NCBI RefSeq assembly: GCF_041361465.1
Contig: NZ_JBGKAC010000001.1
Span: 992,001-1,056,000, forward strand
DNA length: 64,000 bases
Reading direction: 5' to 3'
From: Halobaculum sp. MBLA0143
GTDB taxonomy: Archaea; Halobacteriota; Halobacteria; Halobacteriales; Haloferacaceae
Position 1 is the stretch's first letter, and the number at the start of each line of letters is the position of its first letter. Under the pieces are notes generated by a model. The model saw only the letters and a list, made by a program, of their open reading frames with translations, searched no databases and was not told the DNA's origin. The translations under genes were made by a program, and so were the position numbers. Below, piece after piece: positions 11,033 to 15,929 of the stretch.

Positions 11033-12094
11033 TCAGTCGTCGCCCGCGGCCGCAACCTCGCCGGTCGCGGCCGCGTCGACGGCCTCCTCCAGCCACTGGT
11101 CGACGTCCAGCGCCGCCTTACACCCCATTCCCGCGGCGGTGACCGCCTGTTGGTAGTGGTAGTCGACCACGTCGCCGGCGCCGAAGATTCCCGGTACGTC
11201 CGTCTTCGTCTGGCCGCCGCCGGTGCCGCCGTACGTCTGGATGTAACCCGTCTCGTCCAGTTCGACACCAGTGTCCGCCAGGTAGCCCGTGTTCGGGGTG
11301 TGGCCGATGGCGTAGAACACCGCACCGACGTCGAAGTCGAACTGTTCCACCTCGTCGGCGTCCGGATCGTCCAGCTTCTCCTTGGGGTGGCCGTCCGGGT
11401 GTCGGACGAGAGTGGCGTGGTCGACCCCGTCCTCGCGGCTGCCGTGGAGTTCCGTCAGCTCCGTGTTGCGCATGATCTCCACGTCACCGTCGTCGACGTG
11501 GTCTTGGACGCGGTCGATCCAGTAGTCCTCCGCCCGGAAGTTCTCCCGACGGTGTGCGATGTAGACGGTGTCGGCGAACTTCGTCAGGAACGCCGCCTCC
11601 TCCATCGCGGCGTCGCCGCCGCCGACGACGAGCATGTCCTCCCCACGGAAGAACGCGCCGTCACACGTCGCACACGTCGACAACCCGTACCCCATCAGCT
11701 CGTCTTCGCCCGGGACGCCGAGCGTGCGGGCGCTGGCGCCGCTGGCGGCGATCAGCGCGTCACAGGTGTACACGTCGCCGTTCGTCAGCTCCACCCGGAA
11801 CGGGCGTGTGGTGTCGTCGACGTCCGCGACGACCCCGTTCTCGATGTCGGCACCGAACCGACGCGCCTGTTGTTTCGAGTCGTCGATCAGCTCCGGCCCG
11901 GAGATTCCCTCGGGGAACCCGAGGTAGTTCTCCACCTCCGTCGTCAGGGTCAGCTGTCCCCCCGGCTCGTCTCCCTCGAACACGAGCGGGTTCAGGTTCG
12001 AACGGGCGGCGTAGACGGCTGCCGACAGCCCCGCGGCTCCGGTCCCGGCGACGATCAGCGGCCTGTGTTCGACTGGGTCGGCAGAATCACTCAC
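11033..12094 (-). CDS. trxB: Thioredoxin reductase
   Basis: 353 aa. The FAD-binding motif GTGAAGLSAAVYAARS lies at residues 17-32, the redox-active STCATCDGAFF (CATC disulfide) around residue 138, the nucleotide-binding GGGDAAMEEA around residue 157, and the C-terminal FAD motif GIFGAGDV. It transfers electrons from NAD(P)H to thioredoxins. The start is GTG at 12094 because the conserved domain begins immediately afterwards and a TACAAA box sits about 29 nt upstream; an upstream in-frame extension is not conserved-looking. Confidence 0.9.
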   Translation of the reverse strand: MSDSADPVEHRPLIVAGTGAAGLSAAVYAARSNLNPLVFEGDEPGGQLTLTTEVENYLGFPEGISGPELIDDSKQQARRFGADIENGVVADVDDTTRPFRVELTNGDVYTCDALIAASGASARTLGVPGEDELMGYGLSTCATCDGAFFRGEDMLVVGGGDAAMEEAAFLTKFADTVYIAHRRENFRAEDYWIDRVQDHVDDGDVEIMRNTELTELHGSREDGVDHATLVRHPDGHPKEKLDDPDADEVEQFDFDVGAVFYAIGHTPNTGYLADTGVELDETGYIQTYGGTGGGQTKTDVPGIFGAGDVVDYHYQQAVTAAGMGCKAALDVDQWLEEAVDAAATGEVAAAGDD

Positions 12095-12176: not shown

Positions 12177-12281
12177 CTACGGCGTCGCGGCGTCTTCGAG
12201 GAGGGCTTTCGCGGCGCGCACACCCTCCTCGGTGGTCTCCGTCTCGTTCGTCGACGCTGCTCCCGTGTGTCCTCGTGACAT
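12177..12281 (-). CDS. Small acidic peptide, family copy 1 (34 aa)
   Basis: A 34-codon ORF from ATG at 12281, product beginning MSRGHTGAASTNETETTEEG and ending AAKALLEDAATP. The C-terminal AKALLEDAA is shared exactly with copies 3-5 further on, while the N-terminus differs except for the Glu-Thr-Glu-Thr stretch. A TATA-like TAGTTT (plus-strand aaacta at 12305-12310) lies 24-29 nt upstream, so the mRNA would be leaderless. It sits just upstream of trxB on the same strand. Function unknown. Confidence 0.55.
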   Translation of the reverse strand: MSRGHTGAASTNETETTEEGVRAAKALLEDAATP

Positions 12282-12339
12282 GTGAATCGGCATCTATCCT
12301 CGTGAAACTAAGTTCCTCGGATGACACCTTCACCCGAAC

Positions 12340-12459
12340 TTACAGCTCCGTCGCGTCCGCGAGCAACGCCACCGCCGGGTGGCGCGTCCGTCCGCCGTCC
12401 GTCATCACGTTCGTCTCCTGTGCCTCCGTTTCCGTCCGATCCGTCCGTTCGTCTGCCAT
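12340..12459 (-). CDS. Small acidic peptide, family copy 2 (39 aa, diverged)
   Basis: 39 codons from ATG at 12459. The product has an N-terminal Glu/Thr-rich part and ends VMTDGGRTRHPAVALLADATEL. This aligns with the TDGG...P-A-x-ALL-x-DA-x-x-L pattern of copies 3-5 and is the most diverged member. A TATA-like TTTATT lies at 12485-12490 (minus strand), 26-31 nt before the start, again predicting a leaderless transcript. The upstream module shared by copies 3-5 is not obvious here. Confidence 0.5.
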   Translation of the reverse strand: MADERTDRTETEAQETNVMTDGGRTRHPAVALLADATEL

Positions 12460-12704
12460 CTCGTCGTACGCATTCGATCCGAAGAATAAACCTCTGACGA
12501 CCCTGACCGAAATTCGACAAGTAGTATCTGAACACAGTTGTGAATAAATCGACGAGCGTCGAGAACCCATACGTGACTCGTCGACCACGGGGAGGACGTG
12601 ACGAGGTGCGGGGAGAAGGGACGGCGAGAAACGCCGCCGCAGGAGTGGTCACCGGCAGGTGGGGTGGGTCTCGCCCGGACAGACGAGCGACCTCGGGAGA
12701 CAGT

Positions 12705-12839
12705 TCACAGGCCGGCGGCGTCCTCGAGGAGCGCCTTCGCGGGGTTCGACGGCTCCGCACTGCCGCCGTCGGTCACGATCTCTGCGTCGGTCTCGGTCTC
12801 GATCTCTGCTGCCTCGGTGGTGGACTGCGTCGTGGACAT
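12705..12839 (-). CDS. Small acidic peptide, family copy 3 (44 aa)
   Basis: 44 codons from ATG at 12839. The product opens MSTTQSTTEAAEIETETDAE and closes IVTDGGSAEPSNPAKALLED-AAGL. It differs from copies 4 and 5 in the C-terminal half at only two positions (Ser-Asn in place of Leu-Asp). No signal peptide, no cysteines, no membrane segment. The promoter TTTAAT lies 25-30 nt upstream and the first ~45 nt of upstream DNA are nearly identical to those of copies 4 and 5. Confidence 0.65.
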   Translation of the reverse strand: MSTTQSTTEAAEIETETDAEIVTDGGSAEPSNPAKALLEDAAGL

Positions 12840-12863
12840 CTTGGTTTCGCGTTGGACTGCCAC

Positions 12864-12869
12864 ATTAAA
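12864..12869 (-). promoter_or_regulatory. Core promoter of peptide copy 3
   Basis: Minus-strand TTTAAT at 25-30 nt before the ATG, embedded in a block (gttaatcgtttaatgtggca) identical in all three array units. Confidence 0.6.
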
Positions 12870-12946
12870 CGATTAACGGGAAGTAGCCAATTCCTACTTA
12901 CGACTAACGGGTGTGAGTACGCCAGAGATTCCGGCTGAATCGGTGG

Positions 12947-12961
12947 GTACATAATACAAAC
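12947..12961. promoter_or_regulatory. Distal conserved AT-rich element, copy 3
   Basis: gtacataatacaaac, 108 nt upstream of the peptide start. It may be a second TATA box (either strand) or an operator. Confidence 0.5.
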
Positions 12962-13225
12962 AGCCCCGTTACACCTACTTCCGACCTGTATCCGGACGGT
13001 ACAATCTCGTCCGCGGCGGCGCGCGTCGGCCGGGGCCTCCGAGGCCGGCAGCTGCGACGGTCGGAGGCACAGGAGGGGTGACGACGGAGGCCACTCCGAG
13101 TCCCGGGGTAAGTGGCGGTCGACGGACGGCGCCGGCGCTGGCAGACGAACGGGCGCAGAACGTACCGGACGACGGCTACACCGTGGCGGCGGTGTCGTCG
13201 GACGAGCCGGTGGTGGTGTCGTCGG

Positions 13226-13363
13226 TCACAGGCCGGCGGCGTCCTCGAGGAGTGCCTTCGCGGGGTCGAGCGGCTCTGCACTGCCGCCGTCGGTCACGAT
13301 CTCTGCGTCGGTCTCGGTCTCGATCTCTGCGTCGGTCTCGGCGGTGAACTGCGTCGTGGGCAT
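13226..13363 (-). CDS. Small acidic peptide, family copy 4 (45 aa)
   Basis: 45 codons from ATG at 13363. The product begins MPTTQFTAETDAEIETETDA, where an internal duplication of the DAEIETET unit adds length relative to copy 5. It ends with the common TDGGSAEPLDPAKALLED-AAGL. The last 30 or so residues are identical to copy 5, suggesting recent duplication or gene conversion. It has the same core promoter and the same distal tataatacaaac element as copies 3 and 5. Confidence 0.65.
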   Translation of the reverse strand: MPTTQFTAETDAEIETETDAEIVTDGGSAEPLDPAKALLEDAAGL

Positions 13364-13387
13364 CTTGATTTCGCGTTGGACTGCCAC

Positions 13388-13393
13388 ATTAAA
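13388..13393 (-). promoter_or_regulatory. Core promoter of peptide copy 4
   Basis: Same TTTAAT box and flanks as copy 3, at the same distance from the ATG. Confidence 0.6.
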
Positions 13394-13471
13394 CGATTAA
13401 CGGCGAGTGGTCAGGTCCTACTTAGGGATAACGGGAGTGAACACTCTTCGAGATTCCGGGTAATTCGGGGA

Positions 13472-13486
13472 GTATATAATACAAAC
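13472..13486. promoter_or_regulatory. Distal conserved AT-rich element, copy 4
   Basis: gtatataatacaaac, 109 nt upstream of the peptide start. The palindromic-looking gatctagatctag follows at about 13511. Confidence 0.5.
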
Positions 13487-13731
13487 AGGGCCGCTAGATC
13501 TATTTCCGATCTAGATCTAGTCGGTACAATCTCGGGCGCGCCGGCGCGCCGCCCGGCCGGCTCGGGACACGCCTGTAGCGGTCGATGGTCGACGGGCAGT
13601 GGCGTCGTCGGCGGACGGACGGTGGTGTCGCCGACGGGCGGGCACAGAACGAGCGGGTTCGACAGTCACGCCGCGGCGGCGGCGGTGTCGGCGGTCACGA
13701 CTCGACAGCTACACACCGACGGTGTCGTCGG

Positions 13732-13860
13732 TCACAGGCCGGCGGCGTCCTCGAGGAGTGCCTTCGCGGGGTCGAGCGGCTCTGCACTGCCGCCGTCGGT
13801 CACGATCTCTGCGTCGGTCTCGGTCTCTGCCGTCTCGGTGGTGGACTGCGTCGTGGACAT
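13732..13860 (-). CDS. Small acidic peptide, family copy 5 (42 aa)
   Basis: 42 codons from ATG at 13860, product MSTTQSTTETAETETDAEIV followed by the shared TDGGSAEPLDPAKALLED-AAGL. It is the first member of the array when read in the direction of transcription and faces away from the radical SAM gene at 14148, whose start is 288 nt distant. The intervening DNA carries the conserved upstream module. Confidence 0.65.
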   Translation of the reverse strand: MSTTQSTTETAETETDAEIVTDGGSAEPLDPAKALLEDAAGL

Positions 13861-13884: not shown

Positions 13885-13890
13885 ATTAAA
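13885..13890 (-). promoter_or_regulatory. Core promoter of peptide copy 5
   Basis: Same TTTAAT box and flanks as copies 3 and 4, 25-30 nt before the ATG. Confidence 0.6.
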
Positions 13891-13967
13891 CGATTAACGG
13901 ATGGTTTCGAAGTCGTACTTACGACTGACGGTCGTCTGAGACGAGTGAAATACGGGAGTACGCGGTA

Positions 13968-13982
13968 GTATATAATACAAAC
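13968..13982. promoter_or_regulatory. Distal conserved AT-rich element, copy 5
   Basis: gtatataatacaaac, 108 nt upstream of the peptide start; identical to the copy 4 element. Confidence 0.5.
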
Positions 13983-14120
13983 GTGGTCTCTCGGTCTAGT
14001 TTCAGACGACAGGAACGTGTGAAATTCGCGTGCGCGCCGGGCTCTGCCGGCGCGCGCGAGAGTCCGACTCGATTCGTCGCCGAGGGGCCGCCCGTCCGTC
14101 GGCGGCAGAGACCGCACACA

Positions 14121-14147: not shown

Positions 14148-15929
14148 GTGACCAGAGACCCCGCAGGCGTGGCTGTCACCATCGTCGACGGCTACGTGGA
14201 CGAGCCGGCCCACTTCGGCGTGCCGCCGTACGTCTCCACGTACCCACGCTACACCGCAGGGGCGCTCGTCGACGCGGGCGTCCCGCGCGACCAGATCGTC
14301 TACCACACCATCGACGAACTCCGGTCGGATCCCCGCAAGCGCGGGGACGTGGCGGACGCGGACCTCCTCGTCTACGTCGGTGGGATCACCGTCCCCGGAA
14401 AGTACGTCGGCGGAACACCCGCCGAGCCGGACGAGGTCCGGGAGCTGGCGTGGACCGCCGACGGCACCACGCTGTTGGGCGGTCCCGTTCGGTTCGGCGT
14501 CGGCGAGGAGAACGCCGGCGCTCAGGACATGCAGCGCGACGACTTGGACTACGACTTCGTCTCGATGGGCGACGTGGAGGCGGCCGCTCACGACCTCGTC
14601 GAGAACGGGTTGGAGGGGTACACGGACCGCATCCGCGACTACGACGAGGTCGACCGGTGGTCGAACCTCGGCGCGTTCGTCGTGGAGCAACACCCGGACC
14701 ACCCTGAGTACATCATCGCGGAACTGGAGACCTCTCGGGGGTGTGCCTACCGGTGTTCCTTCTGTACGGAGCCGATGTACGGCGACCCGGACTTCCGGTC
14801 GCCGCCGGACGTGGTCGGCGAGGTGGACGCGCTCTCGGACCACGGCGTGACGGACTTCCGGATCGGCCGCCAGGCGGACATCCTGGCGTACGGCGGCGAC
14901 GGCGAGGCGCCGAACCCGACCGCACTCCGGTCGTTGTACGCCGGCATCCGCGAGGTGGCGCCCGACCTCCGGACGCTCCACCTCGACAACATGAACCCAG
15001 TCACCATCGTCGACTACCCGGAACGCTCCCGGGAGGCGATCCGCACCATCGCCGAGTACAACACCCCGGGCGACACCGCCGCGTTCGGACTGGAGAGCGC
15101 CGACCCGGTCGTCCGCGAGGAGAACAACCTCCTCGTGTCCGCCGAGGAGTGTCTGGAGGCCGTCCGGGTGGTCAACGAGGCCGCCGGCTGGCGGCCGGGG
15201 GAACACCCCGGCGACGGCCCGACGTTCGGCGACGACGCCACCCGACGGCTCCCGAAGCTGTTGCCCGGGATCAACCTCGTCCACGGCCTGGCCGGGGAGC
15301 GGGAGGAGACGTTCGAACACAACCGCCAGTTCCTGCGTGACGTGTTAGACGAGGGGCTCCTGCTCCGTCGGGTCAACGTCCGCCAGGTGATGGCGTTCGA
15401 GGGGACTGAGATGGACGAGACCGGCGCGGAGATCGCCCGCGAACACCGCGACCAGTTCAAACAGTACAAACGAGAGCTCCGCGAGGAGATCGACCGGCCG
15501 ATGCTCGAACGGGTGGCTCCGCCGGGGACGGTCCTCCCGGACGTGTACACGGAGTACCACGAGGACGGCACCACCTTCGGTCGTCAGCTCGGTACCTACC
15601 CGTTGCTCGTCGGCCTGCCCGGCGAACTCCCCTTGGGCGAACGGATCGACACCGCCGTCGTCGACTGGGGCTACCGCTCCGTCACGGCCGTCCCGTACCC
15701 GTTGGACGCCAACGCCGCGAGTATGACGCAGCTGACTGCACTCCCGGGCGTCAACCGCGGTACCGCCGGGGACCTCGTCGTCGGTCGACCGTACGACACC
15801 GTCCGGGAGGCGACGGCCGTCGCCGGCGACGACGACCTCGCCCGGTTCCTCGCGGTCGACACCACGGCCGCGAGCGTCCCGCACGCCAACCCGGCCGCCG
15901 AGCGCGGCAAGCCGGTCGACGCCGACTGA
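14148..15929 (+). CDS. Archaeal radical SAM protein (COG1031-like)
   Basis: 593 aa from GTG at 14148. An N-terminal domain (to about residue 180) precedes the radical SAM core, which begins ETSRGCAYRCSFCTEP with the CxxxCxxC motif ligating the 4Fe-4S cluster around residue 199. The C-terminus has a helix-hairpin-helix-like segment (LTALPGVNRGTAGDLV). The arrangement fits the widespread euryarchaeal family COG1031, whose reaction is not established. The start is chosen by the TATA box 27 nt upstream and because conserved-looking sequence (VAVTIVDGYVDEPAHFG) starts just after. The MBL gene follows 3 nt after the stop, implying an operon. Confidence 0.8.
   Translation: MTRDPAGVAVTIVDGYVDEPAHFGVPPYVSTYPRYTAGALVDAGVPRDQIVYHTIDELRSDPRKRGDVADADLLVYVGGITVPGKYVGGTPAEPDEVRELAWTADGTTLLGGPVRFGVGEENAGAQDMQRDDLDYDFVSMGDVEAAAHDLVENGLEGYTDRIRDYDEVDRWSNLGAFVVEQHPDHPEYIIAELETSRGCAYRCSFCTEPMYGDPDFRSPPDVVGEVDALSDHGVTDFRIGRQADILAYGGDGEAPNPTALRSLYAGIREVAPDLRTLHLDNMNPVTIVDYPERSREAIRTIAEYNTPGDTAAFGLESADPVVREENNLLVSAEECLEAVRVVNEAAGWRPGEHPGDGPTFGDDATRRLPKLLPGINLVHGLAGEREETFEHNRQFLRDVLDEGLLLRRVNVRQVMAFEGTEMDETGAEIAREHRDQFKQYKRELREEIDRPMLERVAPPGTVLPDVYTEYHEDGTTFGRQLGTYPLLVGLPGELPLGERIDTAVVDWGYRSVTAVPYPLDANAASMTQLTALPGVNRGTAGDLVVGRPYDTVREATAVAGDDDLARFLAVDTTAASVPHANPAAERGKPVDAD

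Follow-up and report, generated by a model that had tools for sequence, protein, structure and literature searches.

On the minus strand of a 64,000-nt stretch of the Halobaculum sp. MBLA0143 genome (hereafter the window), five open reading frames (ORFs) of 34–45 aa, all with the C-terminus (A)KALLEDA, follow one another between positions 12177 and 13860, raising the question of whether such short frames are genes and, if so, where they came from and what controls them. An earlier note had described five tandem minus-strand ORFs of this size here and read them as a small-protein family under duplication. All five were found in place, and the locus is organized as follows:

14152..15929, plus strand: divergent radical-SAM gene, related to TIGR04013 but scoring under the cut-off of that family; not conserved as a neighbour
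13732..13860, minus strand: W5, micro-gene of 42 aa (MSTTQSTTETAETETDAEIVTDGGSAEPLDPAKALLEDAAGL), identified by the family profile and by purifying selection on its C-terminus
13226..13363, minus strand: W4, micro-gene of 45 aa, identified by the family profile
12705..12839, minus strand: W3, micro-gene of 44 aa, identified by the family profile
12340..12459, minus strand: W2, diverged micro-gene of 39 aa that keeps TDGG...PAVALLADATEL, identified by the family profile
12177..12293, minus strand: W1, diverged micro-gene that keeps AAKALLEDAATP, 38 aa from ATG 12293 (preferred), else 34 aa from 12281 (12177-12281)
11033..12094, minus strand: trxB-like thioredoxin reductase gene 82 nt downstream of W1, with GTG at 12094 as its start

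Five tandem micro-genes and their coding status

Comparison of the copies confirmed that W3, W4 and W5 are near-copies ending in TDGGSAEP-xx-PAKALLEDAAGL, and that W1 and W2 are diverged and still bear the motif. With W3 as tblastn query against its own genome, W5 and W4 were retrieved with E-values of 1.6e-16 and 3.7e-16; the family profile retrieved W2 (1.7e-11) and W1 (7.4e-9), both being themselves rows of that profile. These values exclude chance. Over the 3.58 Mb genome the profile finds exactly five copies with E < 1e-8, the next match being a long unrelated frame (E 0.07). The copies also vary in N-terminal length through internal repeats, as the earlier note had claimed, always in frame (e.g. 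ETDAEI twice in W4). Between W4 (13215-13321) and W5 (13721-13827), 107 nt covering the C-terminal coding part and the 3' edge are without any difference, which suggests a very recent duplication or gene conversion.

The individual TATA boxes previously assigned to all five genes hold for W3–W5 (TTTAAT, −30 to −25) and W2 (TTTATT, −31 to −26), and not for W1, which has no convincing one. The latter gene follows W2 at a distance of 58 nt. An in-frame upstream ATG at 12293 is preferred as its start because a GAGG Shine-Dalgarno-like sequence precedes it (12301-12298). Because of this short gap, the GAGG with the upstream ATG and the lack of a TATA box, W1 is probably translated from a joint W2-W1 transcript in which it comes second. 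The inner genes of an operon in the related genome G002 likewise carry a GAGG-type sequence before the ATG (TAACACGAGG...ATG), and the same genome has a counterpart of W1 upstream of trxB (L033:1597-1692).

Selection between copies, which had been proposed as a check, was measured as pN/pS, with pS and pN summed across the 12 C-terminal codons in ten representatives of the 16 copies extracted from four genomes of the genus. We obtained a pS of 0.61 and a pN of 0.11, giving a pN/pS of 0.18 on the conserved C-terminus: synonymous sites are nearly free while PAKALLEDAxxL is kept. Between W5 and the G001 copy, 9.0 changes are synonymous and 1.0 is non-synonymous. The N-terminal part varies in length and sequence and keeps its Glu/Thr/Asp composition; all indels are in frame, and none of the copies found is frame-broken. 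Synonymous divergence with a preserved protein, together with in-frame indels, thus excludes that the frames are fortuitous or belong to a non-coding repeat. The conservation of upstream DNA along with the ORF would suit a repeated DNA or RNA element whose reading frame is incidental; the kept protein sequence, the in-frame indels and an Rfam search without match all oppose this explanation, to which we give practically no credence. As judged from the substitution pattern, we show instead a translated family under purifying selection with a conserved reading frame. Together with the finding of copies at multiple loci across the four genomes, this upholds the small-protein family under duplication that the earlier note had proposed.

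AlphaFold2 modelling of 15 sequences gave one helix (residues 30–39, block pLDDT 84), the remainder being of low confidence and the pTM 0.25; a fold search with this model returned no match, as expected for a single short helix. Cysteine is missing from 13 of the 15 sequences and occurs once in each of the other two, so that none is conserved, and the C(P)XCG zinc-finger motif pair was found in none. The N-termini are hydrophilic and devoid of a hydrophobic stretch in all 15, in agreement with the absence of an export signal noted before, as is the arrangement of a conserved C-terminal part behind a variable N-terminus made of low-complexity Glu/Thr/Asp repeats. Searches in Pfam, NCBIfam, PHROGs, PADLOC, PDB and Rfam gave no known-family match of note, the sole NCBIfam match (E 0.015) being far below its cut-off.

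These properties bear on the possibility that the micro-proteins are RiPP precursors matured by the adjacent radical-SAM enzyme. RiPP precursors often occur in tandem copies, and the radical-SAM gene is the divergent neighbour of the array both in the window and at the G002 locus C360. However, it is found at these two loci only, being absent from the other four (L037, L038, L039 and L040), and its product scores above the cut-off of no RiPP-maturase model. The C-terminal position of the conserved part, the low complexity of the variable one and the lack of a conserved Cys and of an export signal also argue against it, and neither a conserved leader nor modifiable core residues were recognized. 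A RiPP-like product is less likely because the radical-SAM gene is not a conserved neighbour, and we regard it as highly improbable.

Distribution and history of the locus

Copy number differs among the four genomes of the genus: five in the window genome (G000), one in G001, seven in G002 (an upper figure, because this metagenome-assembled genome may mix strains) and three in G003, i.e. 11 copies at five loci in the three genomes other than that of the window. The earlier proposal to search for other multi-copy arrays was thus borne out within the genus, for example by the G002 operon at C61, whose five copies are spaced by ~140 nt and adjoin Spt5. At G002 C360 the order is that of the window (radical-SAM gene, micro-gene, W1-like gene, trxB). 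The contigs C360 (L033) and C61 (L038) share a trxB end at only 89% identity, hence the suspicion of mixed strains.

Outside the genus, 170 family-level and 392 order-level genomes were searched; a weak order-level hit in G326 aside, none of the hits inspected covers the conserved C-terminus, the sensitivity of these searches, like that of all our homology searches, being limited by the shortness of the proteins. Weak matches in G019, G064 and G248 were rejected, each being either without the C-terminal motif or part of an unrelated ORF. An origin from viruses or plasmids was likewise set aside, since no micro-gene match was found in plasmid, phage and IMG/VR collections, where haloarchaea are thinly covered. 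Across the genomes searched, the micro-genes are a genus-restricted (orphan) and previously unnamed protein family.

The neighbouring genes tell how this family entered the genus. Four other genera of the family (L091-L094) have DUF357 and trxB side by side in divergent orientation, the matches being ~155-560 nt apart with no micro-gene between them. In G001 a micro-gene sits between DUF357 and trxB, and in G003 two micro-genes follow DUF357. Since the spacer is empty in four genera and occupied in G001 and G003, the gene was gained there within the genus, as read from gene order, either by birth from non-coding DNA or by transfer from a source not sampled here. The DUF357 side was rearranged in the window genome and G002, where DUF357, an HlpB-like gene and tbsP are found elsewhere (L208, L209), and the units of tandem duplication measure ~500 nt in the window and ~140 nt in the five-gene operon of G002. 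Two further observations concern the flanks of related loci. Downstream of trxB in G002, an ORF (L033:3183-3877) was judged by eye to be transposase-like, of the TnpB/IS200-IS605 accessory type. Behind the micro-gene of G003 C219 lies an AT-rich gene (L040:4474-5355) with a GC3 of 0.45 against ~0.75-0.9 around it, hinting at foreign DNA at that locus.

The trxB gene adjoins micro-genes in the window, in G001 and at G002 C360, and W1, its G002 counterpart and the G001 copy all stand directly upstream of it on the same strand, as would a leader peptide or attenuator controlling trxB and later duplicated. Most copies, however, are hundreds of bases from trxB or elsewhere (G002 C61, G003 C80 and C219), trxB has a conserved promoter sequence of its own near CGGACAGCACAAC-TACAAA that is kept in genomes devoid of micro-genes, selection acts on the protein sequence, and Rfam again gave no match. 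A role as trxB leader is therefore very unlikely.

Promoter elements and a probable link to TbsP

Upstream of W3–W5 we recognized three elements, all on the minus strand, which the earlier note had not remarked on and which make the promoter the most telling feature of the locus:

13969..13983, minus strand: E1 of W5 (CGTTTGTATTATATA), at −123, the best window match to the tbsP box of other genera
13916..13930, minus strand: E2 of W5 (CGTCAGTCGTAAGTA), at −70, resembling the tbsP promoter box
13887..13899, minus strand: E3 of W5 (CGTTAATCGTTTA), at −39 relative to the start codon; the TATA box TTTAAT overlaps it
13473..13487, minus strand: E1 of W4 (TGTTTGTATTATATA)
13419..13433, minus strand: E2 of W4 (CGTTATCCCTAAGTA)
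13390..13402, minus strand: E3 of W4, located by exact-site pattern search
12948..12962, minus strand: E1 of W3 (TGTTTGTATTATGTA)
12895..12909, minus strand: E2 of W3 (CGTTAGTCGTAAGTA)
12866..12878, minus strand: E3 of W3, located by exact-site pattern search

Eight promoters from three species were compared (W3, W4 and W5; G002 C360 and C61; G003 C80 a, C80 b and C219), using the pattern CGTTAGTnnYAARYR and close variants for E2 and CGTTARTYGTTTA for E3. In all eight, without deviation, E2 starts at −70 and E3 at −39. E1 (GTATTATATAC) lies ~48 nt further upstream in the window and G002. The 31 nt from E2 to E3 and the ~53 nt from the start of the E1 box to E2 correspond to about 3 and 5 turns of the helix, and at −30 the TATA hexamer within E3 fits, as expected, a leaderless start. 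Every exact E3 site in the four genomes (8/8) stands before a micro-gene; for E2, whose pattern was defined on the micro-genes, this is true of five of the seven exact sites, the other two lying upstream of tbsP genes at a distance of 43 nt. Neither the G001 copy nor W1 or W2 has a good E1 or E2 box. The fixed positions across species demonstrate at the sequence level that the micro-gene family shares a distinctive promoter.

Of 19 genomes sampled from other genera, most have a box, CGTTARTATTAAATA, ~40 nt upstream of tbsP, which encodes a regulator of sugar metabolism. In Haloferax volcanii, TbsP controls gapII jointly with TrmB and has effects on motility and biofilm, according to work cited in PMC13286277. 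We built a matrix from those 19 tbsP promoters, with no micro-gene included, and scanned both strands of the window: the five best sites, and seven of the best 12, fall in the promoters of W3–W5, which are duplicates and hence not independent. Matrices with permuted columns placed their top five all there in 13 of 1000 trials and reached the top-twelve count in 26 of 1000. From these controls, composition explains part of the box signal, the region being AT-rich and the box overlapping BRE/TATA-like sequence. A search for an E1/E2 regulon within the genus returned few candidates besides tbsP genes. Taken together, these data argue fairly well for TbsP-type control of the micro-gene family, the promoter box being a predicted TbsP binding site.

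TbsP-type regulators are expanded in the genus: at E <= 1e-10 the window genome yields 15 matches and G001 yields 20, and many of the regulator genes (L155-L210) have a conserved GTATTAA-type box upstream. The product of one such gene, 2.6 kb from the G001 micro-gene, scores 369.7 bits against the NCBIfam TbsP model, above its cut-off of 300, and G003 has the counterpart of this gene at the same place, also at 2.6 kb; ~209 kb separate the regulator gene from the micro-genes in the window genome. In a tree of 58 TbsP-type proteins, the vertically inherited tbsP groups with other genera in clade B (support 98/90), and the copy beside the micro-genes forms a separate clade A with four members, all from the genus (support 99/95). 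No clade-A protein was the best match in any other genus sampled. Clade A and the micro-gene distribution therefore indicate that both appear confined to the genus and once shared a locus.

This raises the possibility that the micro-protein binds the co-evolved TbsP paralog, as a sponge, anti-regulator or intracellular peptide ligand, and thereby exerts feedback on the promoter of its own gene. Confinement of both partners to the genus in the sampled genomes, their proximity in G001 and G003 and the TbsP-type boxes in the micro-gene promoters are in its favour, while the ~209 kb between them in the window genome and the lack of any sequence relation between the micro-protein helix and the TbsP N-terminal helix count against it; on balance we find such binding rather unlikely. 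Mimicry of that TbsP helix by the C-terminal motif was rejected, TbsP being ordinary among 3420 protein blocks (median quantile 0.21). The fuller version, in which regulator and peptide partner were born together at one locus, with boxes in helical phase and a helix binding the TbsP paralog, is unlikely too, a little more so. If true, it would amount to an intracellular, dosage-tuned peptide feedback circuit, which to our knowledge has not been described in archaea.

Proposed mechanism and comparison with known systems

The account that we prefer, with a probability of about 0.5 for the whole, is that of an orphan micro-protein under TbsP-type control whose C-terminal helix docks on a partner and whose dose depends on copy number. 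The product would be small and cytosolic, with a disordered acidic Glu/Thr/Asp-rich N-tail and a conserved C-terminal helix. Its transcription would be controlled either by the ancestral TbsP or by the genus-specific paralog, whose gene lies 2.6 kb away in the two genomes with the likely ancestral locus. The N-tail might act as a spacer of which the exact sequence matters little, the helix (PAKALLEDAxGL) might dock on a putative cellular partner, as tentatively suggested by C-terminal conservation and the single-helix model, and the number of copies would set the dose.

The locus offers a clear example of a young gene family in archaea, with an empty site in sister genera, strong selection and rapid change in copy number, and, with a promoter linked to a named regulator, it allows both the birth of a gene and the role of an orphan micro-protein to be tested directly. 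By implication, the TbsP regulon would have a small-protein arm; we know of no small-protein target of TbsP. The micro-proteins are not homologues of TbsP (NF047393; PF19138 and PF23336), their link to it being the box that its genes share with the micro-gene promoters.

In Gram-positive bacteria, RRNPP peptide-regulator pairs consist of a small gene near that of its regulator, with a conserved C-terminal peptide and a variable N-terminus. The micro-genes resemble these pairs in all three respects, a likeness in how the systems may work and not one of membership: unlike RRNPP systems, they have no signal sequence, exporter or TPR regulator, the TbsP fold is unrelated, and the hydrophilic N-termini carry no export signal of the kind expected on a pro-peptide.

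Closer to hand are the haloarchaeal micro-proteins, which measure < 70 aa and number 282 in Haloferax volcanii (PMC10716476). Like them, the W family is very small, acidic and cytosolic-looking, with a leaderless-type promoter. The studied subclass consists of zinc-finger proteins with C(P)XCG motifs, whereas the W family has no Cys pair, is multi-copy, is confined to one genus and has a special shared promoter. The micro-proteins are thus a new family within a known kind, the lineage-specific small proteins, and their regulation and clean empty site make them more useful than most of these.
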